A stretch of DNA of 64,000 bases from positions 1 through 64,000 of the forward strand of contig SEEM01000003.1 in NCBI GenBank assembly GCA_004144595.1, in the 5' to 3' direction. Origin of the DNA: Hyphomicrobiales bacterium (GTDB taxonomy: Bacteria > Pseudomonadota > Alphaproteobacteria > Rhizobiales > Beijerinckiaceae). The position numbers and the translations under genes were made by a program. Under the pieces are notes generated by a model. The model saw only the letters and a program-made list of their open reading frames with translations, searched no databases and was not told where the DNA came from. Of the stretch, positions 38,690 through 50,170 are shown piece by piece (the first letter of the stretch is position 1; each line of letters begins with the position of its first letter).

Positions 38690-41053
38690 CTATCCGGGCT
38701 GCATTGCCGGAGGCGTGCGCAGATGCGCGGCGATGTCGTGCCAGAGTCCTTGCAGCGGGCGGAAGACGAAGCGCACCGTCGACTTGCCGGGCGGCACGAC
38801 GACGGCGCGGAACAGGACATTGGCGCGCAGCAATTCGGCCGGCTGTCCGTCGACCTCGACCTGCCACCAATGATGCCAGACGTCGTTGAGCACGAGATAG
38901 CCACCGCGCGCCGTCTCTGACGCGAGCGTCACGGTCGTGGTGCCGTAGTCGAGGATCGCGACGCTGTCGGGTCCGAGCGGGCCGGTGGGCAAGGGCGGGG
39001 GATCGCGGTCGAGCACCACGGTGCGACGCGGGTCGAAACCCTGGGGCCACTCGCCGGTTTGCAGGATCGCGTCGAAATCCGCCTTCCGCGCATCTGTGAC
39101 CAGCAAAATGCGGGGCAAGGCGCGTGGGTTTTCGTAGACGAAAGCATCCTTGGTGCGGGCGATCTGTCGGAGGTCGCCGGGTTTCAGGCGCTTGTCGATC
39201 TGCTCGACCGGCACGCCTGTCGCGATGAAACGCAGCCCCAGCATGTCGGCGAGCAGCGAGCGGTATCCCGGCATCAGCGCCGAGAAGGTGCGCTGGTCGG
39301 GCAGGGCGACATGGTCTCCGGCGCCGGTCGCCTTGCTGTAAAGGCCGAGGCGCAGCGGATTGTAGCCCAGCGTATTGTCGAGATCGTGCACGAGGCTGGC
39401 ATTTGGCCAATGGAAGTCGATTCCGGCGAGTTCGATCCGGTCACGCCGGTCCGGGGCGGCGGTGCGAGCGGTCTCGCGCTTCAGCAGGGCTATGGTGTCG
39501 TTGCTGCTGTCCTTGCGCAGGACGTCATAGGTCTTGGCGGGCAGGGCGGTGGATTCGCTTGGGCCGTTATTGACCGCGAGATCGATGGTCAGCGTCGCTG
39601 CCAGGACCATGGTTGCGGCGATGACCGAGTTCCGTTTGGCGAGCCCGTGCGCGGCGACGAGGCCGCCGAGCGAAAGCACGGCGCATAAAGCGGCGACGAC
39701 GAGCGGCATGGTCGCGACCGTGATGCGGCCCACCGTCCAGGCCAGCCACAGTGCGAGAGCGAGAGCTCCCGTGAAAATCAGGGCTTCGAGGACGATCTGC
39801 CAAGGGCGTGCCTTGGGGGCGCTGCCGGTCATGACGAGATGGGTCAGGTAGCCGCCGAGCAGGGCAAGTAGCGCACCGAGGATGAAGAGCGCATCGGCCG
39901 GGCGTCTGTAGAAGCTGATGCCGGGCAATTCGAACAGCAGGCGAAAGGCCGGCGTGTAGCGGCCGAGCGCGAAGAGCAGGACGATGATCGCCGCGACGGT
40001 CAGCGGCACGATCTCGCGTCGCCAGAGCGCGCCACGCACGAGGCCGACCGTCAGGATCAGCGCCATCGGCAGCAGGCCGAGATAGAGCTGGCTCATGTTG
40101 CGGGCGAGGAAGAGGCTGAGCGGGCCGAAGCGCGCTTCCCAGGCCGGGCTCGGCGCGCCCCAAAAATCGGCGAGCGGGCCGGCGGCGCCATAGAGATTGG
40201 CGAATATTCCGGTCAGGAGTGCCGCCGGGTGCAGCGAGCCCTTGCCGGCCTCGACGAAATCGATGACGGGGCGGTTCGATTCCTGCGCGATGAAGGCGGT
40301 CAGCAAGATGGGGATGGTCGCGACCAGAATGGCGCCGAGCGTGCCGGCGATGAGCGCTGGCAGGCTGGCCCGGCAAGCGCGCCACGGGCTCTTCGCCATC
40401 AGGATCGCCGTGATGGTCAGGCCGGCGAGCACATAGACGCCCAGTAGTGCGACCTGGTCTCGCCCCAGCACCATGAAGCCGGAAACGATGCCGGCAGCGA
40501 AACCATATGCGATCGAGCCGCGCTCCAGCGCCCGCGAGAGCAGAGCGAGCGTGATCGCGAAATAGCCGAGGCTCAGCACCTGTCCGACATGCTGGATGCG
40601 CCAGGCGGCAGCGGCACCGAAGGCGAAGGACAAAGCCGCGACGGCGGCGCCAGCCGGGTGCCAGCCGCGATCGCGGAACATCACCACGATCGACAGGGCA
40701 CCGAGCAGCAAGGTGCCGAGCAGGGCGCCGTCGCTCCAGCGAAAATCCGGTGCCGGGTTCAGCGCAGCGATCAGGGCGAAGGAGGGCGAGAAGATCAGGG
40801 ATTGCGGATCGGCGACCTGCGGCGAGCCGGAGAAGACGTAAGGGGTCCAGAAGGGCGAGAGACCCTTGTGCCAGGCATCCGCGAGGAACTGGAGCTGGGG
40901 GTGGAAATGCGCCTTGGCATCCCAGGGAATGGTGAGCGTGCCCGAAAGCCAGGGCCAGGACAGCGCGAGCCAGGCGATTAACACGATCGCGCAGACGCTG
41001 GCCAGCGGCCAGCGTGCGGGATTGTCGGGCGAAAGGTTGTCGGGCTCCGGCAT
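38690..41053 (-). CDS. Large polytopic membrane protein, YfhO/GT-C-like
   Basis: The 787-aa product has about 12-14 membrane helices in its first 500 residues and a soluble C-terminal part. LSWPWLSGTLTIPWDAKAHF with the long first loop containing an acidic residue, PYVFSGSPQVADPQSLIFSP and PGISFYRRPADALFILG match YfhO-like and GT-C glycosyltransferase membrane proteins, which use polyprenyl-linked sugars. The C-terminus (VVPPGKSTVRFVFRPLQG) is the usual YfhO ending. Target glycan unknown. It converges on the HAD gene. Confidence 0.75.
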   Translation of the reverse strand: MPEPDNLSPDNPARWPLASVCAIVLIAWLALSWPWLSGTLTIPWDAKAHFHPQLQFLADAWHKGLSPFWTPYVFSGSPQVADPQSLIFSPSFALIAALNPAPDFRWSDGALLGTLLLGALSIVVMFRDRGWHPAGAAVAALSFAFGAAAAWRIQHVGQVLSLGYFAITLALLSRALERGSIAYGFAAGIVSGFMVLGRDQVALLGVYVLAGLTITAILMAKSPWRACRASLPALIAGTLGAILVATIPILLTAFIAQESNRPVIDFVEAGKGSLHPAALLTGIFANLYGAAGPLADFWGAPSPAWEARFGPLSLFLARNMSQLYLGLLPMALILTVGLVRGALWRREIVPLTVAAIIVLLFALGRYTPAFRLLFELPGISFYRRPADALFILGALLALLGGYLTHLVMTGSAPKARPWQIVLEALIFTGALALALWLAWTVGRITVATMPLVVAALCAVLSLGGLVAAHGLAKRNSVIAATMVLAATLTIDLAVNNGPSESTALPAKTYDVLRKDSSNDTIALLKRETARTAAPDRRDRIELAGIDFHWPNASLVHDLDNTLGYNPLRLGLYSKATGAGDHVALPDQRTFSALMPGYRSLLADMLGLRFIATGVPVEQIDKRLKPGDLRQIARTKDAFVYENPRALPRILLVTDARKADFDAILQTGEWPQGFDPRRTVVLDRDPPPLPTGPLGPDSVAILDYGTTTVTLASETARGGYLVLNDVWHHWWQVEVDGQPAELLRANVLFRAVVVPPGKSTVRFVFRPLQGLWHDIAAHLRTPPAMQPG

Positions 41054-41084: not shown

Positions 41085-42212
41085 TCAATCCGTCGGGGCG
41101 GCGCGCGCCATCAACGCGTCCATGTCGATGAGATGGCCGGCGCGGTCGCGCTTGGAGGCGAGATAGCGAACGTTATGCGCGTTGGGGCGCCCAAGCACAC
41201 GCTGGGTCGCGGCAACCTCGAGCCCGGCGGCCTGTATTGCGCCGATCTTCTGCGGGTTGTTGGTCAGCGCCACGACACTGGAAATGCCGAGCTGCTTCAG
41301 CATCGTCGCCGCGAAGTCGAAATGGCGCTGGTCGAGATCGAACCCGAGCACCTCGTCGGCGTCATAGGTATCCCAGCCCTGGCTCTGCAATTTATAGGCG
41401 CGCATCTTGTTCGAGATGCCGTTGCCGCGGCCTTCCTGGTCGAGATAGAGCAGGACGCCGCCGGCGTTCTCGGCCATCCACTGCACGGTCTCGCGCAACT
41501 GGTCGCCGCAATCGCATTTGAGCGAGCCGAACAGATCGCCGGTGAGGCATGCCGAGTGCAGGCGCACCGGGACAGCGGTCGAAAGATCAGGCTTGCCGAC
41601 GATGATCGCGACCTGGTCGCGCAGGCCCTCGCCGCCGCGGAAGACGACAAATTCGGTATCGGGAGCGCCTTCGAGCGGCACCGGCGCGCGGCCGACGATC
41701 TTCAGCGTGGCAGCCTGCTCGGCGCGGTACCCGTCGACGGCGGCGATCTCGACCTCGATCAGCGGCTCGTTGGCGATGGCCTCGGCCGTGACGGGCACGA
41801 GGATCGCGGCCGGTAGCACGAGCGACAGGCGGGCCAGTTCCAGCGCGGCCTCGTCGAGGGCTGAGGCCGGGGCGACCGGCGCATCCATGCGGCCGTCGAT
41901 CTTCAGCGCGAGCGTCTCGATGCGGCCGTTGTCCATGCTGGGCAAGGCGAAGATGCCGGTCTCCAGGCGCCCCTTGGCGCCGAGGCGGCGCAAGCGCGCG
42001 GCGCTCAGCACGAGATGGCCCCGGCCCTGCGCCAGGGTGTCGAAGCGGCGAACCAGTTCATTGTCGGCGAGTTCGGCCGACAGGGCCAGCGCCAACCGGG
42101 CGCCTTCGCGAAGCAGCACGGGGCGGCCGGCGCGAAACTCGGCGATCGCCCGTTCGACCTTCACGAAATCCGTCTGGAGGGATGGGCCGAAGAGCGTACG
42201 CGACTCAGGCAT
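41085..42212 (-). CDS. ribA: RibA-type GTP cyclohydrolase II with degenerate RibB-like N-terminus
   Basis: GTP cyclohydrolase II opens GTP to the diaminopyrimidine precursor of riboflavin. The C-terminal half (about 190-375) keeps the zinc cysteines CLTGDLFGSLKCDCG, the QEGRGNGISNKMRAYKLQ segment with the catalytic tyrosine, and an arginine in LDQRHF, then LTNNPQKIGAIQAAG. The N-terminal half (AEFRAGRPVLLREGARLAL) follows the RibB (DHBP synthase) outline, but the acidic DDExRExE metal site is gone. It lies two genes from the PTPS-like operon. It may serve riboflavin or another GTP-derived path. Confidence 0.85.
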   Translation of the reverse strand: MPESRTLFGPSLQTDFVKVERAIAEFRAGRPVLLREGARLALALSAELADNELVRRFDTLAQGRGHLVLSAARLRRLGAKGRLETGIFALPSMDNGRIETLALKIDGRMDAPVAPASALDEAALELARLSLVLPAAILVPVTAEAIANEPLIEVEIAAVDGYRAEQAATLKIVGRAPVPLEGAPDTEFVVFRGGEGLRDQVAIIVGKPDLSTAVPVRLHSACLTGDLFGSLKCDCGDQLRETVQWMAENAGGVLLYLDQEGRGNGISNKMRAYKLQSQGWDTYDADEVLGFDLDQRHFDFAATMLKQLGISSVVALTNNPQKIGAIQAAGLEVAATQRVLGRPNAHNVRYLASKRDRAGHLIDMDALMARAAPTD

Positions 42213-42466: not shown

Positions 42467-43030
42467 ATGCAAGGCGAGACGCCGGCAACACGCACCTACA
42501 GCCCGATCGCCCGCGCGCTGCACTGGGTCACTGTCGCGGCGGTCTTCGCGATGATCCCGGTCGGGCTCACCATGACCTATCGCGGCAATGTGCTGAACAT
42601 CTGGGATGGGCTGACGAACGGTCTCTACAGCGTGCACAAGCTCACCGGCTTTCTGCTGCTGTGGCTGATAGCCGGCAGGCTGGCCTATCGCCTGCTGCAT
42701 GGCGCGCCGCCCGACGAGCCGACGCTGGCCTGGTGGCAGAAGGCCGCCTCGCATCTGGTGCATTGGTTGCTGTACGGCCTGCTGCTGATGGTGCCGCTGC
42801 TCGGCTGGATCGGGGTCTCGCTGTTTCCGGCGCTGACGATCTTCGGCTTGTTCGACCTGCCGGCATTGGCGAAGCCCGATGAGGAGGCGGCCAAGCGCGT
42901 GCTCGATATCCACGGCAAGCTCGCGCTCGCGACCGGGGCGCTTGCGCTCCTGCATATCGGCGCAGCGCTGCATCATCACCTGATCCTCAAGGACGGCGTG
43001 ATGCGGCGGATGCTGCCTTGGTTGAGATAG
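42467..43030 (+). CDS. Cytochrome b561-type membrane protein
   Basis: This 187-aa protein has four membrane helices and heme-ligand histidines in the pattern of bacterial cytochrome b561: ARALHWVTVAAVFAMIPVGL (first His), SVHKLTGFLLLWLIAGRL (second), HLVHWLLYGLLLMVPLLGW (third), and DIHGKLALATGALALLHIGAALHHHL (fourth). These usually oxidise ubiquinol or reduce a periplasmic acceptor. It is divergent from ribA and ends 3 nt from the methyltransferase gene. Confidence 0.9.
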   Translation: MQGETPATRTYSPIARALHWVTVAAVFAMIPVGLTMTYRGNVLNIWDGLTNGLYSVHKLTGFLLLWLIAGRLAYRLLHGAPPDEPTLAWWQKAASHLVHWLLYGLLLMVPLLGWIGVSLFPALTIFGLFDLPALAKPDEEAAKRVLDIHGKLALATGALALLHIGAALHHHLILKDGVMRRMLPWLR

Positions 43031-43033
43031 AGC

Positions 43034-43873
43034 CTAGATCGGCCGGGCCCAGAGGTCCTGATGGCCGATCAGGGCCGAGCGGGCTTCGCGGCGGGCCGCG
43101 AGCCATTCCGCGATCGCCTTCGGGTCGAGGCGGCCGGTCTCGCCGACGGCGGCAGCGATGCCTTCGGCCAAGGACTCCTGCAACGGCCGGCGTTTCGCAT
43201 CGAGCAGCCAGTTGCTGTCGCCGCTCGAAACCGCGAAGCCGGATTTGCGGAAGGCTTCGGCCATGATCTCGCAGGCATCCGCGCCGGCTGCGGGGCCGAA
43301 TCCCTTGTCGCCGTGCTGGTGGTTGGTGAAGGCGGCGTGGATGCCCGCGTCGACCGGGTGCTCGGGCAACCAGGTCTCGCGGCCATCATGGGTCAGCGCC
43401 GCGTAGAGCGGGAGGTGCTGGCTGGCCAGCGCCGCGACGAAGCGCTCGATCCAGCGCCTGGAGACGAGATCGAAAAGCGCAGCGGCGGTGACGAGATCGG
43501 GCTGCCAGCCCAACACCCATTCCAGATCCTTGTTCAGGTCGACCTGGCGGGTATCGACCGTGATCGTCTTGCCGTCCTTGGCGAGGACGAGTTCTTCGCC
43601 CTGCTGGCGCGCCTCGTCGGCCCAGGCGGCGAGGCGGGCGCGTGCGAAGCCGAGCAGTTCGGCATCATGGTCGACCAGCGTCCAGTGCTGGCGATGGGGC
43701 AGGGCGGCGTAGGTGGCGCGCAGGTTCGAGCCCGCACCGCAGCCGAGATCGAGCACGGAAAGCGACGCCTTGTCGGCGAAATGGCCGCCAACGGCGGCCA
43801 GCACCTGCGGATTGCGCGCCTCGTGATCGGCCGGCTCGCGCAATGCGAGCCATTCCGGAGAGAAACCAGCCAT
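43034..43873 (-). CDS. Class I SAM-dependent methyltransferase (pterin-operon member)
   Basis: This 279-aa protein has methyltransferase motif I SVLDLGCGAGSNLRATYAAL near 40, WTLVDHDAELLGFARARL (ribose binding acid), and a long insert with DKDLEWV-like and NHQHGDKGFGPAAG segments. It ends with an unusual helical tail. The start overlaps the stop of the glycosyltransferase gene, and it is the last gene of the four-gene operon. The acceptor is unknown; relatives occur next to PTPS-like genes in rhizobia, as far as I recall. Confidence 0.8.
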   Translation of the reverse strand: MAGFSPEWLALREPADHEARNPQVLAAVGGHFADKASLSVLDLGCGAGSNLRATYAALPHRQHWTLVDHDAELLGFARARLAAWADEARQQGEELVLAKDGKTITVDTRQVDLNKDLEWVLGWQPDLVTAAALFDLVSRRWIERFVAALASQHLPLYAALTHDGRETWLPEHPVDAGIHAAFTNHQHGDKGFGPAAGADACEIMAEAFRKSGFAVSSGDSNWLLDAKRRPLQESLAEGIAAAVGETGRLDPKAIAEWLAARREARSALIGHQDLWARPI

Positions 43874-44937
43874 TACCCCACCTTTCGGCCGTCATCACGC
43901 AGGCACGCTGCCGCGACGATGCGCGCGGTCTCGCTCCAGCGTTGCAAATTGCCGGCCGCGGCCCACGCGGCATCGGCCCGCTGCCGACGCTCTGCCGGCG
44001 CATCAATCAGCCTTGCAAGCGCCTTGGCAAGTGCCGCGACGTCGCGAGGCGGAACCTTCAGCGCGGCAGCATCCGGGAGGGCTTCGGCCCCGGCCCCGCT
44101 CAGCGTCGTGACGATCGGCAGTCCGCGCGCCAGCGCCTCAGTCAGCACCATGCCATAGCCTTCGTAGAGCGAGGGCATGACGAAGAGGTCCGCCTGATCA
44201 TAAAGCTGGGCGAGCCTGTCGGTTCCGACACCCCCGGGCAACGCGATTCGCTCCGCCAGCCCTGCTCGGGCGATGCCGCCCCGCAGGTCGGCTGCGGTTG
44301 CGGGGGCGTAATCCGGCGAGCCGACGATGGTCAGGGTCCAGGGGCGGTCTGCAATGGCGGCCAGCGCCTCGAGGAGGGTGCCGTAGCCCTTGCGGGGAAT
44401 GAGCGATCCGACGGCAAGCAGGTGCGGCGTGTCGCTTTGGCCGGAGCCTTTGGCGCGCGGTGCGGAGTCCGTGCCGGGTATCGCGACCGCGATCTTGCCG
44501 GCGGGGACCTCGAACTCAGCTTCCAGGGCCGATCTTGTCGCGGGGCTGGTGGTCACGACCCCGCGCGCGTGGCGCAGCGCCAATGTTTCGCTTCGCCGCA
44601 AGGCGTCAGCCGCGTCGCAGCCGAGGCCGGTCTCCAGCGCCAGCGGATGATGCACCAATGCGACCAGCCGATCGGCGAAACGCGCAGCCAGCGCTCCAGT
44701 GAAGGCACCGCAGGCGAGGCCGTCGACGAGCAGGACGTCATCGGGCGCGGTTTCGGCGAGCAAGCGCTCGGTCGCCGCGAGATCGGCTTCGGTCGGGAAG
44801 GGGAAGGAGCCGGGCAGGGCGAGGTGGCGCGCCTCGATGCCGGCCTTGCCCCATTCGCTCAGCAGGCGCCGGTCGTAGCCGTAGCCGCCTGTCGGCGCAT
44901 CGATATCGCCGGGGATGGCGAAGACGATGGCGCTCAC
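43873..44937 (-). CDS. Glycosyltransferase family 4 (GT-B)
   Basis: This 354-aa enzyme shows GT4 features: FAIPGDIDAPTGGYGYDRRLL at the start (Gly-rich loop), RHARGVVTTSPATRSALEAEF, LAVGSLIPRKGYGTLLEALA, and the C-terminal EX7E motif in PSLYEGYGMVLTEALARGLPIV. It is soluble. It overlaps the PTPS-like gene by ATGA upstream and the methyltransferase by 1 nt downstream, so the four are co-translated. The acceptor may be the product of the PTPS-like step. Confidence 0.9.
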   Translation of the reverse strand: MSAIVFAIPGDIDAPTGGYGYDRRLLSEWGKAGIEARHLALPGSFPFPTEADLAATERLLAETAPDDVLLVDGLACGAFTGALAARFADRLVALVHHPLALETGLGCDAADALRRSETLALRHARGVVTTSPATRSALEAEFEVPAGKIAVAIPGTDSAPRAKGSGQSDTPHLLAVGSLIPRKGYGTLLEALAAIADRPWTLTIVGSPDYAPATAADLRGGIARAGLAERIALPGGVGTDRLAQLYDQADLFVMPSLYEGYGMVLTEALARGLPIVTTLSGAGAEALPDAAALKVPPRDVAALAKALARLIDAPAERRQRADAAWAAAGNLQRWSETARIVAAACLRDDGRKVG

Positions 44938-45335
44938 GCGAGGGCGCCCTCATAGCTGGCGCGGGCGAGATCGGTCTCGTGCAGGGTCACGCGGATCTTG
45001 CTGAGCCCTGCGCCATCGGCGCCGAGCGCGCCGGATTTCGCTGCCGACGCCATGGCGTCGAAGACGTGCTTGCAGAGGAATTCGGTGGTGGTCAGCACAT
45101 CAGCGAATTGCGGGAGCGCGTCGAGATTCTGGTATTTCAGCGGCTTCAGCGTCTCGGCGAGAATGTCGAGCGCGGCGCCGATATCGACGACGACATTCTG
45201 CCTGTTCAGGGTCTCCCGAAAGAAGGCGACATCGACCACGAAAGTGGCGCCGTGCATGTTCTGCGCCGGCCCGAAGAAGGGATCGGGCAGGGAATGACCG
45301 ATCATGATGCGGTCGCGGACTTCGACGGAAAACAT
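44934..45335 (-). CDS. PTPS/QueD-fold protein lacking the classical catalytic residues
   Basis: This 133-aa protein has the 6-pyruvoyltetrahydropterin synthase fold: FSVEVRDRIMIGHSL (first zinc His), MHGATFVVDV in place of the usual HGHxY, VVVDIGAALDIL, and TTEFLCKHVFDAM with the pterin-binding Glu. However, the catalytic Cys before HGH is missing (PAQNMHG), the second His of HGH is Ala, and the Asp-His of LDHxxLN is changed (LKYQNLD). It may therefore bind a pterin but carry out another reaction. Operon order: dehydrogenase, this gene, glycosyltransferase, methyltransferase. Confidence 0.8.
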   Translation of the reverse strand: MFSVEVRDRIMIGHSLPDPFFGPAQNMHGATFVVDVAFFRETLNRQNVVVDIGAALDILAETLKPLKYQNLDALPQFADVLTTTEFLCKHVFDAMASAAKSGALGADGAGLSKIRVTLHETDLARASYEGALA

Positions 45336-45371
45336 GCGATCTCCCGGTGATGGGTTGGCAACAGGGCGCGG

Positions 45372-46391
45372 TCAGGACCGCGTTTCATAGCAAATCGCGG
45401 CGGTCAGGCCAGCGGCGCCCGGCGCAAGCAGGCCGGGCAGGCGCCTGGCCAGGTCGCCGAACGCGATCTCGTCGGTGATCAGCGCATCGAGCCGGTCGTC
45501 GGCCAGCAGGGCCATCGCCGCTTCGGCCCGGCGAGCATAGCTCCAGCGCACACGCCGCGCGGCCGATACCAGCCCGACCTGCGAGGAGATCAGCTGCAGG
45601 CGGCGGGCATGGAAGGCGCCGCCGAGCGAAGCGGGAACGGCGCCCTCGCCATACCAGCTCAGCTCGATGATCCGCGCTTCCGTGCCGGCGGCTGCGATAG
45701 CGGTCGCAAGACCGGCTGCGGTCGCGCTGGCATGGAAGACGATGTCGGCATCGCGCGGCGCGGCATCGGGCAAGGCGAAACCGAAGCCGAGCTTCGCGGC
45801 AAACGCTGCTCGGCCGGGTTCGACATCGACGAGCGTGACCTCGGCTCCAGGCAGGCGCGCGGCGAGCCAGGCGACCAGCAAGCCGATCAGGCCACCGCCG
45901 ACGATCACGATCCTGTCAGCGGGGCCGGAACCGGCATCCCAATGGGCATTCAGCGCCGTCTCCATGTTGGCGGCGAGGATGGCGCGCCGGGCGGGAACTC
46001 CATCCGGCACGGGGACGAGGCTGCCGCGCGGCGCTACGAAACGGTCCTGATGCGGATGCAGGCAGAAGACGATGCGGCCGAGTGTATCCTGCGGACCCGC
46101 GTCGATCCGGCCGACCGCGCAGTAGCCGTATTTGACCGGAAACGGGAAATCGCCCTGCTGAAACGGCGCGCGCATGCGTTCATGCTCGGAGCAGGGCACG
46201 CGGCCCTCGCAGACCAGTCGCTCCGTGCCCCGGCTGACGCCGCTCCAAAGCGTGGTCACCAGGCAGTCGTCCGGTCCGAGCGCGGGCAGGGCAACCTCAT
46301 TCAGGTTGCATTCACGGGGCGCTGTATACCAAAGCGCAAGAGCCTTTGTCCTTGCGTCAGTCGGTGTTGCAGGCTTTAGCTCCCGCGCCAT
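45372..46391 (-). CDS. BchC-like medium-chain dehydrogenase (non-zinc type)
   Basis: This 339-aa protein is in the alcohol-dehydrogenase superfamily: TTLWSGVSRGTERLVCEG, FPFPVKYGYCAVGRID in place of the catalytic GHE zinc motif, HPHQDRFVAP, and a Rossmann nucleotide site RIVIVGGGLIGLLVAWLAA. The SGVSRGTE/VKYGY pattern resembles BchC, a bacteriochlorophyll dehydrogenase, but no other photosynthesis gene is here. I chose ATG 46391; the frame is open far upstream as an antisense shadow of opgH. First gene of the operon, 36 nt before the PTPS-like gene. Confidence 0.85.
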   Translation of the reverse strand: MARELKPATPTDARTKALALWYTAPRECNLNEVALPALGPDDCLVTTLWSGVSRGTERLVCEGRVPCSEHERMRAPFQQGDFPFPVKYGYCAVGRIDAGPQDTLGRIVFCLHPHQDRFVAPRGSLVPVPDGVPARRAILAANMETALNAHWDAGSGPADRIVIVGGGLIGLLVAWLAARLPGAEVTLVDVEPGRAAFAAKLGFGFALPDAAPRDADIVFHASATAAGLATAIAAAGTEARIIELSWYGEGAVPASLGGAFHARRLQLISSQVGLVSAARRVRWSYARRAEAAMALLADDRLDALITDEIAFGDLARRLPGLLAPGAAGLTAAICYETRS

Positions 46392-46430
46392 TCGCGTCCG
46401 ATCCCGTTTGCCCGAGCCTGTCTGCCTACC

Positions 46431-48260
46431 ATGACAGAGACCGCCATGAACCCGCGTCCCGCTCCGACCACGTTCCGGCGGGCGACGCAAGAGGCTGGGC
46501 CTGATGGTCTGACCCCGGCCGGGCTGCAGGCGGAAACGGCGCTGCGCCGCCGCCGGTTCCTCGTCCTCGCCCTCAATCTCGTCACGCTGGCACTGCTGCT
46601 GGCCGGCCTTGCGCGCGTGCTCGGAACCGGTGGCTGGAGCGCCGCGGATGTCGCGATCTTCGTCGCTTTCCTGTTCGGTGCGCCCTGGACCGTGCTCGGC
46701 TTCTGGAACGCGGCGATCGGGCTCTGGCTGATCCACCGCAAGGCAGACGGGCTCGCCGAGGTCGCGCCCTTCGCTGTCGCGGGCAAGGAGGCGCGATCGC
46801 TGACGCTGCGCACCGCCGTCCTGATGACCTTGCGCAACGAGGATCCGGCGCGCGCGTTCCGCCGGCTCAAGGTTGTGAAGGACAGCCTCGATGCGACCGG
46901 CGAGGGCGCCTGGTTCGATTATTTCGTGCTGTCGGACAGCAATGATCCGGTCGTTGCCGCGGCCGAAGAGGAATTGGCCGGGGCGTGGGCGCGCGAACTC
47001 GGCCAGCCGGTGCGCGTGACCTATCGCCGCCGCAGCGACAATGCCGGGTTCAAGGCCGGCAATCTCCGCGATTTCTGCGAGCGCTGGGGCGAGCGCTACG
47101 AATTGATGCTGCCGCTCGACGCCGACAGCGTGATGTCGGGCGACACGATCCTCGCCATGGCCCGAATGATGCAGGTGCATCCGAAGCTCGGAATCCTGCA
47201 AAGTCTCGTGGTCGGCATGCCCAGTCGTTCGGCCTTCGCCCGTATCTTTCAGTTCGGCATGCGCCACGGCATGCGGCCCTACACCATGGGCTCGGCCTGG
47301 TGGGGCGGCGATTGCGGGCCGTTCTGGGGGCATAACGCGCTGGTGCGGATCGCACCCTTCCGCGACCATTGCCATCTGCCGGTCCTGCCCGGTGGACCGC
47401 CGCTCGGTGGGGCCGTGATGAGCCATGACCAGGTCGAGGCGACATTGATGCGCCGGGCCGGTTACGAGGTGCGCGTGCTGCCGGTCGAGGGCGGAAGCTG
47501 GGAGGAGAACCCCCCGACCATGCTTGATTTCGCCAAGCGCGACCTGCGCTGGTGCCTCGGCAACCTGCAATATCTCAAGCTGCTCGGCCTGCCCGGCCTC
47601 AAACCGATGAGCCGCTTCCAGCTGATCTGGGCGGTCCTGATGTTCCTCGGCCTGCCGGCCTGGACATTGATGATCGCGCTGCTGCCGCTCAAGGTGATCG
47701 AGGACCGGGCGATCGCCGAATATCCGGTCGTGCTTGCAGGCGGCCTCTACCTGCTGTTCCTGGCGATGTATCTCTCGCCGAAGCTCGCTGGCTTTGCCGA
47801 CATCCTGCTGACGCGTGGCGGCGTCGCGCGCTATGGCGGCAAGGCGCGGTTCCTGGTCTCGGCGGTGATCGAACTGGTATTCTCCTTCCTGCAGGGCGCG
47901 GTGTCGAGCTTCCGGACGACGCTGTTCATGATCGGCCTGGTCTTCGGTCGGGCCAGTATCGGCTGGAACGGGCAGGCGCGGGACGCCCATGCCCTGTCCT
48001 TCGCGACGGCTTTCGCCGGCCTTTGGCCGCATCTGCTGTTCGGGGCCTATATCTTCGTCGCGCTGGGCGTGATGGCGCCGGCGGTGCTGATCTGGTCGCT
48101 GCCGCTGACGGCCGGCTACGTGCTGGCGATCCCCTTCGCCATGCTGACGGCTGCGCCCGCCTGCGGCGCCTGGCTGGCGCGGCGCGGGCTCTGCGGCATA
48201 CCCGAGGATTTCGACCTGCCGCCGGTGCTCGCCGCGATCCGCGACAAGGAGGCGGCATGA
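46431..48260 (+). CDS. opgH: Glucan biosynthesis glucosyltransferase OpgH (MdoH)
   Basis: OpgH makes and exports the backbone of osmoregulated periplasmic glucans. The 609-aa product has two N-terminal helices, a cytoplasmic GT2 domain with LMTLRNEDPARAFRRL, MLPLDADSVMSGDTIL (DxD), MSHDQVEATLMRRAGY and the RxxRW motif in KRDLRWCLGNL, and about six C-terminal helices. It is shorter than E. coli MdoH (847 aa) but similar to short alphaproteobacterial forms. No opgG is adjacent. Its stop overlaps the FkbM gene by ATGA. Confidence 0.92.
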   Translation: MTETAMNPRPAPTTFRRATQEAGPDGLTPAGLQAETALRRRRFLVLALNLVTLALLLAGLARVLGTGGWSAADVAIFVAFLFGAPWTVLGFWNAAIGLWLIHRKADGLAEVAPFAVAGKEARSLTLRTAVLMTLRNEDPARAFRRLKVVKDSLDATGEGAWFDYFVLSDSNDPVVAAAEEELAGAWARELGQPVRVTYRRRSDNAGFKAGNLRDFCERWGERYELMLPLDADSVMSGDTILAMARMMQVHPKLGILQSLVVGMPSRSAFARIFQFGMRHGMRPYTMGSAWWGGDCGPFWGHNALVRIAPFRDHCHLPVLPGGPPLGGAVMSHDQVEATLMRRAGYEVRVLPVEGGSWEENPPTMLDFAKRDLRWCLGNLQYLKLLGLPGLKPMSRFQLIWAVLMFLGLPAWTLMIALLPLKVIEDRAIAEYPVVLAGGLYLLFLAMYLSPKLAGFADILLTRGGVARYGGKARFLVSAVIELVFSFLQGAVSSFRTTLFMIGLVFGRASIGWNGQARDAHALSFATAFAGLWPHLLFGAYIFVALGVMAPAVLIWSLPLTAGYVLAIPFAMLTAAPACGAWLARRGLCGIPEDFDLPPVLAAIRDKEAA

Positions 48261-49015
48261 ACGCCGTCACCTATCCGAAGGGGACCGTGAAGGCGCTGTC
48301 GCGCTCCTTGCGGGTTTATCACGGCGACAAGCAGCGCCGTGCGGCGATGGACCGGCTCTATGGGACCTTCCTCGCGCCGGGCGACCTTGCCTTCGATATC
48401 GGCGCCCATGTCGGTGACCGGGTTTCGTCCTTCCGCCGGCTGGGCGCGCGGGTCGTCGCGCTTGAGCCGCAGCCCGGTCCGGCCCGCGTCATCCGCCTGA
48501 TCCACCGCCGCGACCCGCTGGTGACGCTGGTCGAGGCAGCCTGCGGCGTCCATGAGGGCTCGATCACGCTCCGGATCAACAGCCTGAACCCAACGGTCTC
48601 GACCGCGTCGGCCGCGTTCATCGGGGCCGCCGCAGGTGCCAGCGGCTGGGAGGGCCAGGTCTGGGACCGCGAGATCGCGGTGCCCTGCACGACGCTCGAC
48701 CGATTGATCCTGCGCTATGGCCTGCCGAAGCTGCTCAAGATCGACGTCGAGGGCTTCGAGGCGCATGTGCTGGCGGGGTTGACCAAGGCAGTGCCGGTGA
48801 TCTCCTTCGAGTTCACGACGATCCAGCGCGAGGTCGCCGAGGCCTGCCTCGTCCTGCTGGAGACGCTCGGCCCCTATCGCTTCAATGTCGCGATCGGAGA
48901 GAGCCAGGCGCTGGAGCTTGCGGAGCCGGCAAGTGCCGAGGCGATGGGCGACTACTTGCGCAGCTTGCCGCATGAGGCCAATTCGGGCGACGTCTACGCC
49001 ATCCTGAAGGCTTGA
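48257..49015 (+). CDS. FkbM-family methyltransferase
   Basis: This 252-aa protein has the FkbM outline: GDLAFDIGAHVGDRVSSFRRLGARVVALEPQP (SAM site), VEAACGVHEGSITLRI, CTTLDRLILRYGLPKLLKIDVEGFEAHVLAGL and FEFTTIQREVAEAC. FkbM enzymes O-methylate sugars and polyketides. Translation is coupled to opgH (4-nt overlap), which suggests a modifying role on the periplasmic glucan, but that is inference. Confidence 0.9.
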   Translation: MNAVTYPKGTVKALSRSLRVYHGDKQRRAAMDRLYGTFLAPGDLAFDIGAHVGDRVSSFRRLGARVVALEPQPGPARVIRLIHRRDPLVTLVEAACGVHEGSITLRINSLNPTVSTASAAFIGAAAGASGWEGQVWDREIAVPCTTLDRLILRYGLPKLLKIDVEGFEAHVLAGLTKAVPVISFEFTTIQREVAEACLVLLETLGPYRFNVAIGESQALELAEPASAEAMGDYLRSLPHEANSGDVYAILKA

Positions 49016-49201
49016 GACACCTCACGGTGATTCTGCGCGAGAGCTCGAGCTCTGCTCGGAACGTTGCTGCTTGTCGACAGTTGCCGGAAGATCCGAAAGG
49101 AGCCGGGCTGCGGCCGCCGCAGTCCTGTCTGCCCAGCACGGTCAGCCGAGGTTCATCTGGCTGGTATCAGGCTGCTTCGGACATCATCGCCAGGGATTGC
49201 C

Positions 49202-50170
49202 ATGACTCGTTTTCTTCGCTCGCTTGCGGTTTCGGCTGCTCTTCTCGCCTCGCTGACGATAGCGCGGGCTGCCGGCGACGTGGCCGTAGAGGTGAAGAAC
49301 GAATCCGAGCCGGTGCTCTGCGCCGAGAAGGACAACGTCACGATCAAGGCGATCTCGCCGGAAGTCCGGCGCTTCCAGATCGAGGCGGCGCATCCGGCTT
49401 ATGTCGCGGGGCTCGTTCGCGACAACTGGGATGCCGACTGGACGAGTTGCGACATGAAGGGCGATCCGTCCTTCGCGCCGCCGACGCCGCCGCGCCGCGT
49501 GACCTTCTACGAATCGATCGACTACTGGCTGGTCGGCTACACCTTCCCGAGCTTCTGGCGGCCGGCTGAGACGACCTTCCGCGTCGGCGACCGCGTGGAG
49601 AAGGGCTTGCACCTCGTGCAACTCTGGAAGCTCGGCAAGGACAAGTCCCATGAGGTGCTCGTCGTCTATCCGCAGGACGGCAACTGGCGCGCCCGGCCGC
49701 TGCCGCCGGAGCATCTGGGCTTCTCCTCCTACGGCTCCTCGTTCCTGTTCGGACCGATCGAGCAGGAGGGGCGCCCCGTCGTGAACATCAAGGAGATCGT
49801 GTTCGACCCGCAGACGCTGACCTTCAAGCTGAACTTCAAGGATGGCTCGTCCGGCAGCCTCAAGCTGGACAGCGTCGACGAGAACCGGATGGTGCTCGAC
49901 GCGGTGCTCGATCAGCCGGTGACCGGCGGAAAGGGCTTCGTCGCGCTGCGCTCGATGTACGTCACCGAGTTCAACAACGACGTTGCCCGCATCGGGCTGC
50001 GCGAGCCCGGCGCCAAGGGTTGGCGCGAGGAAGCGCTGATGTCCTATCCCGGCGGCAAGGCGACCGACATCTGGATGGGGCGCACGACGCATTCGCGCCA
50101 CAACACGTCCTCGCCCGACATGGTGTTCCGCCGCTTCTCGACCGATCCGAACCCGCCGCCGAAGCCCTAA
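49202..50170 (+). CDS. Exported protein of unknown function
   Basis: The 322-aa product starts at ATG 49202 with a signal peptide (MTRFLRSLAVSAALLASLTIARA) and is a mostly beta, Trp- and charge-rich periplasmic protein (VCAEKDNV-like Cys at about 38, Cys near 83). No domain is familiar, and it is shorter than OpgG (about 500 aa) so is not an OpgG. It lies 186 nt behind the opgH-FkbM pair. The KGFVALRSMYVTEFNNDVAR segment looks structured. Conserved rhizobial unknown. Confidence 0.6.
   Translation: MTRFLRSLAVSAALLASLTIARAAGDVAVEVKNESEPVLCAEKDNVTIKAISPEVRRFQIEAAHPAYVAGLVRDNWDADWTSCDMKGDPSFAPPTPPRRVTFYESIDYWLVGYTFPSFWRPAETTFRVGDRVEKGLHLVQLWKLGKDKSHEVLVVYPQDGNWRARPLPPEHLGFSSYGSSFLFGPIEQEGRPVVNIKEIVFDPQTLTFKLNFKDGSSGSLKLDSVDENRMVLDAVLDQPVTGGKGFVALRSMYVTEFNNDVARIGLREPGAKGWREEALMSYPGGKATDIWMGRTTHSRHNTSSPDMVFRRFSTDPNPPPKP

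Follow-up and report, generated by a model that had tools for sequence, protein, structure and literature searches.

The PTPS-IV subfamily was reported in 2017 with the signature FGPAQ and with neighbours carrying PF00925 and PF01872 (AGeNNT, PMC5445326). The section of that paper which treats it labels PF00925 as FolE2, gives no function, and mentions neither a dehydrogenase, a glycosyltransferase of family GT4 or a methyltransferase nor the OpgH and CDP-alcohol phosphatidyltransferase sets described below. A PTPS-like protein is encoded in the window analysed here, that is, the whole stretch of 64,000 nucleotides (positions 1 to 64,000 of contig SEEM01000003.1, assembly GCA_004144595.1) from a Hyphomicrobiales bacterium, where its gene lies on the minus strand in a four-gene operon with those of a dehydrogenase, a GT4 glycosyltransferase and a methyltransferase. 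Judged by its residues, the protein is a member of the known orphan subfamily PTPS-IV and not an ordinary PTPS or QueD, and it has the FGPAQ of the printed subfamily; GTP cyclohydrolase II (GCH II) and RibD-C likewise recur near PTPS-IV in the loci mapped here, although the window locus has RibA without RibD-C. Its closest named relatives, among the matches listed, are from Bosea or Boseaceae (85-95% identity), from which we infer that the host is a Bosea.

The SCO6650/SCO6655 region of Streptomyces coelicolor, reportedly studied by the Bandarian group in 2006 and 2008, encodes a protein of the same PTPS subfamily, with the motif HGA common to both, and presumably also a GCH II paralog; SCO6650 is said to be without PTPS activity. 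In two Streptomyces loci mapped here (L171 and L183), a RibA with Met at its switch residue is paired with a creatininase-family gene, whereas the Bosea locus has Tyr at the switch, an OpgH paralog and no creatininase found nearby. According to PMC9478397, the creatininase-family enzyme BrbF of Sinorhizobium and other bacteria deformylates the first GTP-derived intermediate to 2,5-diamino-6-ribosylamino-4(3H)-pyrimidinone 5'-phosphate (DARoPP), which is the step proposed below for the Streptomyces creatininase. BrbF is, however, a housekeeping riboflavin enzyme that lies outside the Bosea locus, and it is likened here by family and step, not by sequence. Similarly, ArfC (2azn; TIGR01508), the closest solved relative of the reductase found in many clusters, feeds riboflavin and not a PTPS-IV cluster, and the osmoregulated glucan glucosyltransferase OpgH/MdoH falls in the same equivalog as the window copy, which is a separate, PTPS-IV-tied paralog.

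The cluster is real, conserved and unexplained, and is partly known, as PTPS-IV with GCH II and RibD-C neighbours. A first-pass annotation of this DNA could name no pathway with this exact gene set; the find is not wholly new, PTPS-IV with GCH II and RibD-C having been in print since 2017. Within the limits of the searches made, what is new comprises the complete core and its distribution, its association across genomes with an ArfC-like reductase, the pairing of Met with creatininase in two loci and an OpgH paralog dedicated to the cluster. The literature searched, its coverage leaving out most subscription papers, named no product of the cluster, nor did any report in it join OpgH or CDP-alcohol phosphatidyltransferase with PTPS-IV.

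A conserved four-gene core around PTPS-IV

The neighbourhoods of PTPS-IV were compared in an order-level sample of 199 genomes, 54 of which have a PTPS-IV match (one a fragment) and 145 none. With the fragment excluded, 54 neighbourhoods drawn from 53 genomes were analysed; all four proteins (scored at E 1e-8) were found in 48 of them, the dehydrogenase gene of L059 lying about 5 kb away. As for the six incomplete neighbourhoods, L036 and L084 are at contig ends, L047 is a second lone copy, and L066, L070 and L079 lack the methyltransferase. The first-pass annotation, which saw in the four genes a possible pterin-type pathway, had itself proposed synteny across Hyphomicrobiales as the first test that could overturn this idea; since the genes are kept as a set, the idea came through it.

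The core reaches Rhodobacterales, Gamma- and Betaproteobacteria and actinomycetes, at times rearranged. In a species-level genome collection, relatives of the PTPS-IV protein are encoded in at least 587 stretches, and the 80 kept of these span Hyphomicrobiales, Rhodobacterales, Azospirillum, Elstera, Caulobacteraceae, Xanthomonas, Pseudohaliea, Alcaligenaceae and Polynucleobacter, among others. All four families are present in 64 of the 80, in some cases rearranged, and some of the other 16 are cut by contig ends. Plasmid records with relatives (20, with 14 neighbourhoods taken in) add Streptomyces, Microbacterium, Arthrobacter, Thiodictyon, Methylosinus, Rhodobacterales and rhizobia, with all four families in 10 of the 14 loci. 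Overall, 123 of 148 mapped loci hold the four families, and PTPS-IV is present in 27 of 398 sampled Pseudomonadota genomes.

Family counts were then taken in 117 loci that differ in their PTPS sequence and extend at least 7 kb to either side of it, a set which contains close relatives and in which the counts are biased upward, as the hidden Markov models were built from the same loci. Near PTPS-IV, 112 loci have the dehydrogenase, 107 have GT4 and 109 have the methyltransferase; the accessory families were OpgH-type GT2 (75), RibD-C reductase (68), cytochrome b561 (58), RibA (52), FkbM (46), CDP-alcohol phosphatidyltransferase (24), a sulfatase-like family (17) and an LPG-type flippase (15). 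The grouping exceeds chance: a control set of 20 stretches, each 18 kb long and drawn from 20 of the same genomes, held no member of any of the 18 families searched for. Unsupervised clustering of the leftover neighbours gave no further constant partner, the top family being an ABC ATPase in at most 15 of the 117 loci.

The window PTPS protein matches PF01242 at 73 bits (cut-off 22.4), and its best solved relative is SCO6650 (PDB 3d7j; E 1.5e-36 over 132 residues), with human PTPS at just 4e-4. Among 144 distinct PTPS-IV sequences, the window protein included, FGPAQ is kept in 143 (the window among them), while the zinc motif is HGA in all 144 and HGH in none, one zinc His being replaced by Ala. 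The position of the catalytic His holds Tyr in 141 and Phe in three, and the Asp preceding it is kept in one sequence, the other 143 having N, A, R, K, T or S there; Thr84 is kept in 143, and Glu85 and Glu120 are kept in all 144. We take these positions to be, as in PTPS, the zinc site, the catalytic Asp-His triad and the Thr and Glu that anchor the pterin. The expectation of the first-pass annotation that the protein be the usual enzyme of GTP or dihydroneopterin triphosphate is thus not supported, as the full zinc site and the catalytic His are gone in all 144 sequences.

The dehydrogenase reaches 50.7 bits against the BchC model TIGR01202 (cut-off 291.25), a score so far under the cut-off that a BchC function was rejected, and its earlier designation as BchC-like reduces to a distant likeness. 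In its family S53-R-G-T-E57 and Y88-G-Y90 are invariant in 24 rows, the Ser presumably sitting where enzymes of the medium-chain dehydrogenase/reductase (MDR) superfamily usually carry the Cys of the catalytic zinc. The GT4 protein matches Glyco_trans_1_4 at 103.3 bits (cut-off 27). For the methyltransferase, the family match is weak (27.2 bits, cut-off 27), yet W8, D42, D68, H271 and D273 are invariant in 41 rows, and its predicted model (mean predicted local distance difference test (pLDDT) 97.2) resembles class I S-adenosylmethionine (SAM) methyltransferases in a Foldseek search, which indicated no substrate. PADLOC, run on five proteins, returned a weak mad2 match to this methyltransferase (2.9e-07), probably through the shared methyltransferase fold, and a defence system was rejected.

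Two variants of the arrangement were also seen. L170 and L176, both on Streptomyces plasmids, carry a PTPS-IV gene but not the cluster; MEKHLA, cupin, MBL-fold and sigma-factor genes lie near it, and it could possibly have another role there. In L139, L152, L166, L167 and L169, mostly with betaproteobacterial titles, the methyltransferase lies beyond the OpgH paralog and not after GT4.

Links to GTP ring opening and to an OpgH paralog

The first-pass annotation had tied the operon to GTP ring opening by distance only, and the link holds beyond distance. In 76 of the 117 loci, including ones from Streptomyces, Xanthomonas and Rhodobacter, GCH II or the ArfC-like reductase is encoded no more than 9 kb from PTPS-IV; at the window locus RibA adjoins the operon and RibD-C is absent. 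The reductase of the relatives is a RibD-C protein without a deaminase domain, with MJ0671 (2azn) as its best PDB match (9.2e-23). Furthermore, it was found in 40 of the 54 PTPS-IV genomes and in one of the 145 others (E <= 7.5e-45; next match 2e-28), the lone other genome being 56% complete. By-family contrasts, made in 12 families over the subset of the 199 genomes that have tabulated family codes, showed it to be commoner in PTPS-IV genomes in 10 families, rarer in none and tied in two; in the family coded f20 it was not found in five of six sampled genomes. It is distant from PTPS-IV in 12 of the 40 genomes, and in six of these 12 (G065, G070, G100, G106, G167 and G183) it adjoins a RibA or GCH II match.

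The window RibA matches GTP_cyclohydro2 at 158.9 bits (cut-off 23.3), passes NF006456 (505.4 versus 464 bits) and, numbered as in Escherichia coli RibA, keeps Tyr105, Arg128 and all three zinc Cys. Its predicted model (pLDDT 89.3) resembles E. coli GCH II with a template modelling (TM) score of 0.92 by target, and the N-terminal half, which has no PF00926 match, is modelled as a fold like that of 3,4-dihydroxy-2-butanone 4-phosphate (DHBP) synthase (TM near 0.6 by target). Compared with RibBX, the protein is a mirror image: its RibB half is degenerate, and its GCH II half is kept. Such a long RibA is present in 30 of the 54 PTPS-IV genomes versus six of the 145 others (E <= 2e-50; next match 6e-45).

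The switch residue of RibA near PTPS-IV is Tyr in 54 of 61 rows, Leu in three and Met in two, two rows being fragments. Both Met rows are from the two Streptomyces loci that have RibA (L171 and L183), and in each a creatininase-family gene lies beside ribA; no creatininase is in the locus of any of the three Leu-type rows. Met at the switch is said, in Biochemistry in 2006, to halt SCO6655 at a formylated intermediate. The pairing suggests an answer to that point, in that a Met-type GCH II adjoins, in two loci, a gene of a family which, going by the BrbF paper, contains a deformylase of that intermediate. The Streptomyces creatininase, which may act as deformylase of the formylated intermediate, reaches 37 bits against the ArfB model NF033501 (L171; cut-off 180), its best model being MftE (141 versus 172). 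The route by Tyr-type RibA and that by Met-type RibA plus creatininase both would yield DARoPP. In L051, L058 and L146, whose loci include the reductase, the RibA-like protein carries Leu in place of Tyr105 and an altered motif, AKLDCLALQ.

The link between OpgH and PTPS-IV is the most unexpected result of the analysis. The window GT2 protein, divergent from the operon, passes the OpgH equivalog model NF003963 (938.5 versus 884 bits) and is 37% identical to the other OpgH of the genome (G000:C246). Two OpgH classes were separated in the order search: 46 genomes have a copy at E <= 8.3e-147, and the further OpgH-type copies begin, beyond a gap, at 7e-96. The former, cluster-type class is present in 44 of the 54 PTPS-IV genomes versus two of the 145 others (G076 and G111); in nine of 12 families its frequency is higher among PTPS-IV genomes, the other three being ties. 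Of the ten PTPS-IV genomes without it, five (G037, G038, G058, G095 and G155) carry a CDP-alcohol phosphatidyltransferase near PTPS-IV. In addition, the family of the protein at 49064-50170 occurs in 31 of the 117 loci, every one of which also has an OpgH-type gene.

A proposed pathway and its alternatives

The cluster probably turns GTP into a methylated, sugar-bearing pterin-like molecule. In the reading which we tentatively prefer, and hold with something short of even confidence, the operon forms the centre of a dedicated pathway, one that leaves riboflavin synthesis at its earliest steps and leads to a glycosylated, methylated diaminopyrimidine or pteridine, perhaps envelope-bound. With substrates and order of steps as we infer them, RibA would open GTP to DARoPP, and an ArfC-like reductase without a deaminase domain (in most relatives, not in Bosea) would convert the ribosyl to a ribityl group, so that the 2-amino group typical of pterins would stay. 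PTPS-IV may bind the pterin-like ring in what was once the pterin pocket and, having neither zinc site nor catalytic residues, could offer acid-base or templating chemistry, possibly closing the second ring; the product would be a pterin in the strict sense on the supposition that this ring is formed. The dehydrogenase would oxidise a hydroxyl, GT4 attach a sugar and the methyltransferase add a methyl group, after which the OpgH paralog (here) or the set of CDP-alcohol phosphatidyltransferase and flippase (elsewhere) might carry the product to the envelope or attach it there. What the analysis shows directly are the genes with their linkage and co-occurrence, the changed residues and the catalytic residues that RibA keeps. 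The map gives a testable pathway, with its member genes, a starting metabolite and a possible destination of the product.

Several observations weigh against this pathway. None of the constant neighbours over the 117 loci would supply the carbons of the second ring. The Bosea genome is without the ArfC-like reductase, having just a bifunctional RibD and a DHFR-like RibD_C protein; moreover, the reductase is missing in 14 of the 54 PTPS-IV genomes, and seven of the 54 lack both it and the long RibA. Its score against TIGR01508 (109.1 bits) does not reach the cut-off of 186.45; given this and its best PDB match, 2azn, the reductase is best said to work like ArfC, not to be ArfC. The long RibA is less closely tied to PTPS-IV (by family, higher in five, lower in one and tied in six; p 0.22), and at the window locus a convergent gene splits it from the operon. 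The Met/creatininase pairing is confined to two loci, and creatininase also occurs in two Tyr-row loci (in L081 directly beside ribA) and in L123, which has no RibA. Finally, the OpgH and CDP-alcohol phosphatidyltransferase sets are together in one of the 117 loci, but their exclusion (by-locus p 6e-12) comes down to some four changes on the tree, and an independent-pairs test finds no significance (median p 0.5); as the signal is lost once relatedness is considered, a strong mutual exclusion of the two envelope sets was rejected.

It is somewhat unlikely that RibA and the ArfC-like reductase are instead riboflavin helpers, with the operon acting on an unrelated envelope glycan or lipid and PTPS-IV binding another ligand. 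The first-pass annotation had named action on an unrelated substrate such as a lipid as its second refuting condition, and this keeps some probability, since a dedicated OpgH paralog or a CDP-alcohol phosphatidyltransferase set accompanies the cluster. The neighbouring OpgH paralog, FkbM, CDP-alcohol phosphatidyltransferase, LPG-synthase-type flippase and sulfatase-like genes would fit such a role, as would the separation of RibA from the operon, and in L187, from a Bosea relative, the RibB-type protein has no zinc Cys of GCH II, so that the window RibA could serve riboflavin. However, the near confinement of the reductase to PTPS-IV genomes is unlike a riboflavin enzyme, the 76 of 117 loci with RibA or reductase close to PTPS-IV include Streptomyces, Xanthomonas and Rhodobacter, and the residues of the pterin pocket are conserved. 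Moreover, five genomes of the same family without the operon also have no RibA match, and a need of RibA for riboflavin is thus not general.

A secreted glycosylated pterin or lumazine, serving as signal, pigment or redox shuttle with the OpgH paralog as a mere regional neighbour, is unlikely. Pterin glycosides are known in cyanobacteria, and GT4, the methyltransferase and the frequent cytochrome b561 would suit a soluble decorated redox molecule; the near restriction of the cluster-type OpgH to PTPS-IV genomes is, however, hard to reconcile with a bystander.

The dedicated pathway, if generalised, would make the cluster one source of a widespread class of GTP-derived, ribitylated, glycosylated and methylated pteridines or diaminopyrimidines on a periplasmic glucan or phospholipid-like anchor, an extension we regard as speculative and rather improbable. 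If true, the class would be a surface-bound redox- or light-active cofactor, with a glucan anchor in OpgH-paralog lineages and a lipid-like one in CDP-alcohol phosphatidyltransferase lineages.

An ordinary pterin pathway (queuosine through QueD, folate or tetrahydrobiopterin) is very improbable: PTPS-IV members are automatically named 6-carboxytetrahydropterin synthase or PTPS and share the PF01242 fold, but the residues do not support these names, the window protein is below the QueD cut-off (30.4 versus 89.25 bits), HGA replaces HGH throughout, and SCO6650 reportedly lacks the activity, so that all three products were rejected on residues and model cut-offs. A role in synthesis of cofactor F420 or a deazaflavin precursor, to which a 2016 review, in the passage concerned, assigns PTPS-IV on unpublished work (PMC5041015) and which could share a ribitylated pyrimidine with the cluster, is scarcely credible, an F420 product being rejected on the co-occurrence of the F420 ligase PF01996 (5 of 54 PTPS-IV genomes versus 20 of 145 others, and none in the Bosea genome).

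Gene layout of the window locus

The PTPS gene is present as a single copy in the Bosea genome, and the locus is laid out as in Table 1. Dehydrogenase and PTPS genes are separated by 36 nt, those of PTPS and GT4 overlap by 4 nt and those of GT4 and methyltransferase by 1 nt, while ribA lies 821 nt downstream of the operon on the same strand. The first-pass annotation agrees with these coordinates as to the four minus-strand genes, the overlaps, the 36-nt gap and a ribA about 0.8 kb away, but omitted the intervening gene for cytochrome b561, which lies 3 nt from the methyltransferase gene and separates the operon from ribA. With this convergent gene in between, ribA is unlikely to be in the transcription unit of the operon.

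Table 1. Features of the PTPS-IV locus in the window, by position and strand
Feature	Position	Strand	Remarks
MDR-superfamily dehydrogenase	45372..46391	-	339 aa; first operon gene; distant from BchC
PTPS-IV protein	44934..45335	-	133 aa; FGPAQ, HGA; pterin-binding fold without full zinc site
GT4 glycosyltransferase	43873..44937	-	354 aa; GTG start
Class I SAM methyltransferase	43034..43873	-	279 aa; family without name, conserved from Bosea to Streptomyces
Cytochrome b561	42467..43030	+	convergent
RibA, GTP cyclohydrolase II	41085..42212	-	zinc Cys 3/3, Tyr105 and Arg128 equivalents; extra N-terminal domain
Divergent intergenic stretch, 39 nt	46392..46430	.	between start codons of dehydrogenase and OpgH paralog
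OpgH/MdoH-type membrane glucosyltransferase	46431..48260	+	paralog of the genome's second OpgH
FkbM-family methyltransferase	48257..49015	+	overlaps OpgH paralog by 4 nt
Protein without Pfam/NCBIfam match	49064..50170	+	start uncertain; 49130-50170 used as query
YfhO-like membrane protein	38690..41053	-	after ribA; near PTPS-IV in 15/117 loci; membership doubtful

Further observations concern RibA. An FMN (flavin mononucleotide) riboswitch near ribA, considered as a housekeeping sign, was dropped, as Rfam searches over five sources gave a single tRNA and no other match. That the window RibA stands in for RibB was likewise rejected: PF00926 is absent from the Bosea draft but present in 11 of 11 other genomes, five of them reached via Bosea loci, and its absence from the draft is likely an assembly gap. 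As in L187, the RibB-type protein of L186, from a same-family genome, is without the zinc Cys positions of GCH II. L086, at C72 of the Bosea genome itself, has a further GCH II-like gene with another open reading frame behind it, and the two resemble the uracil-catabolism pair URC1/URC4.

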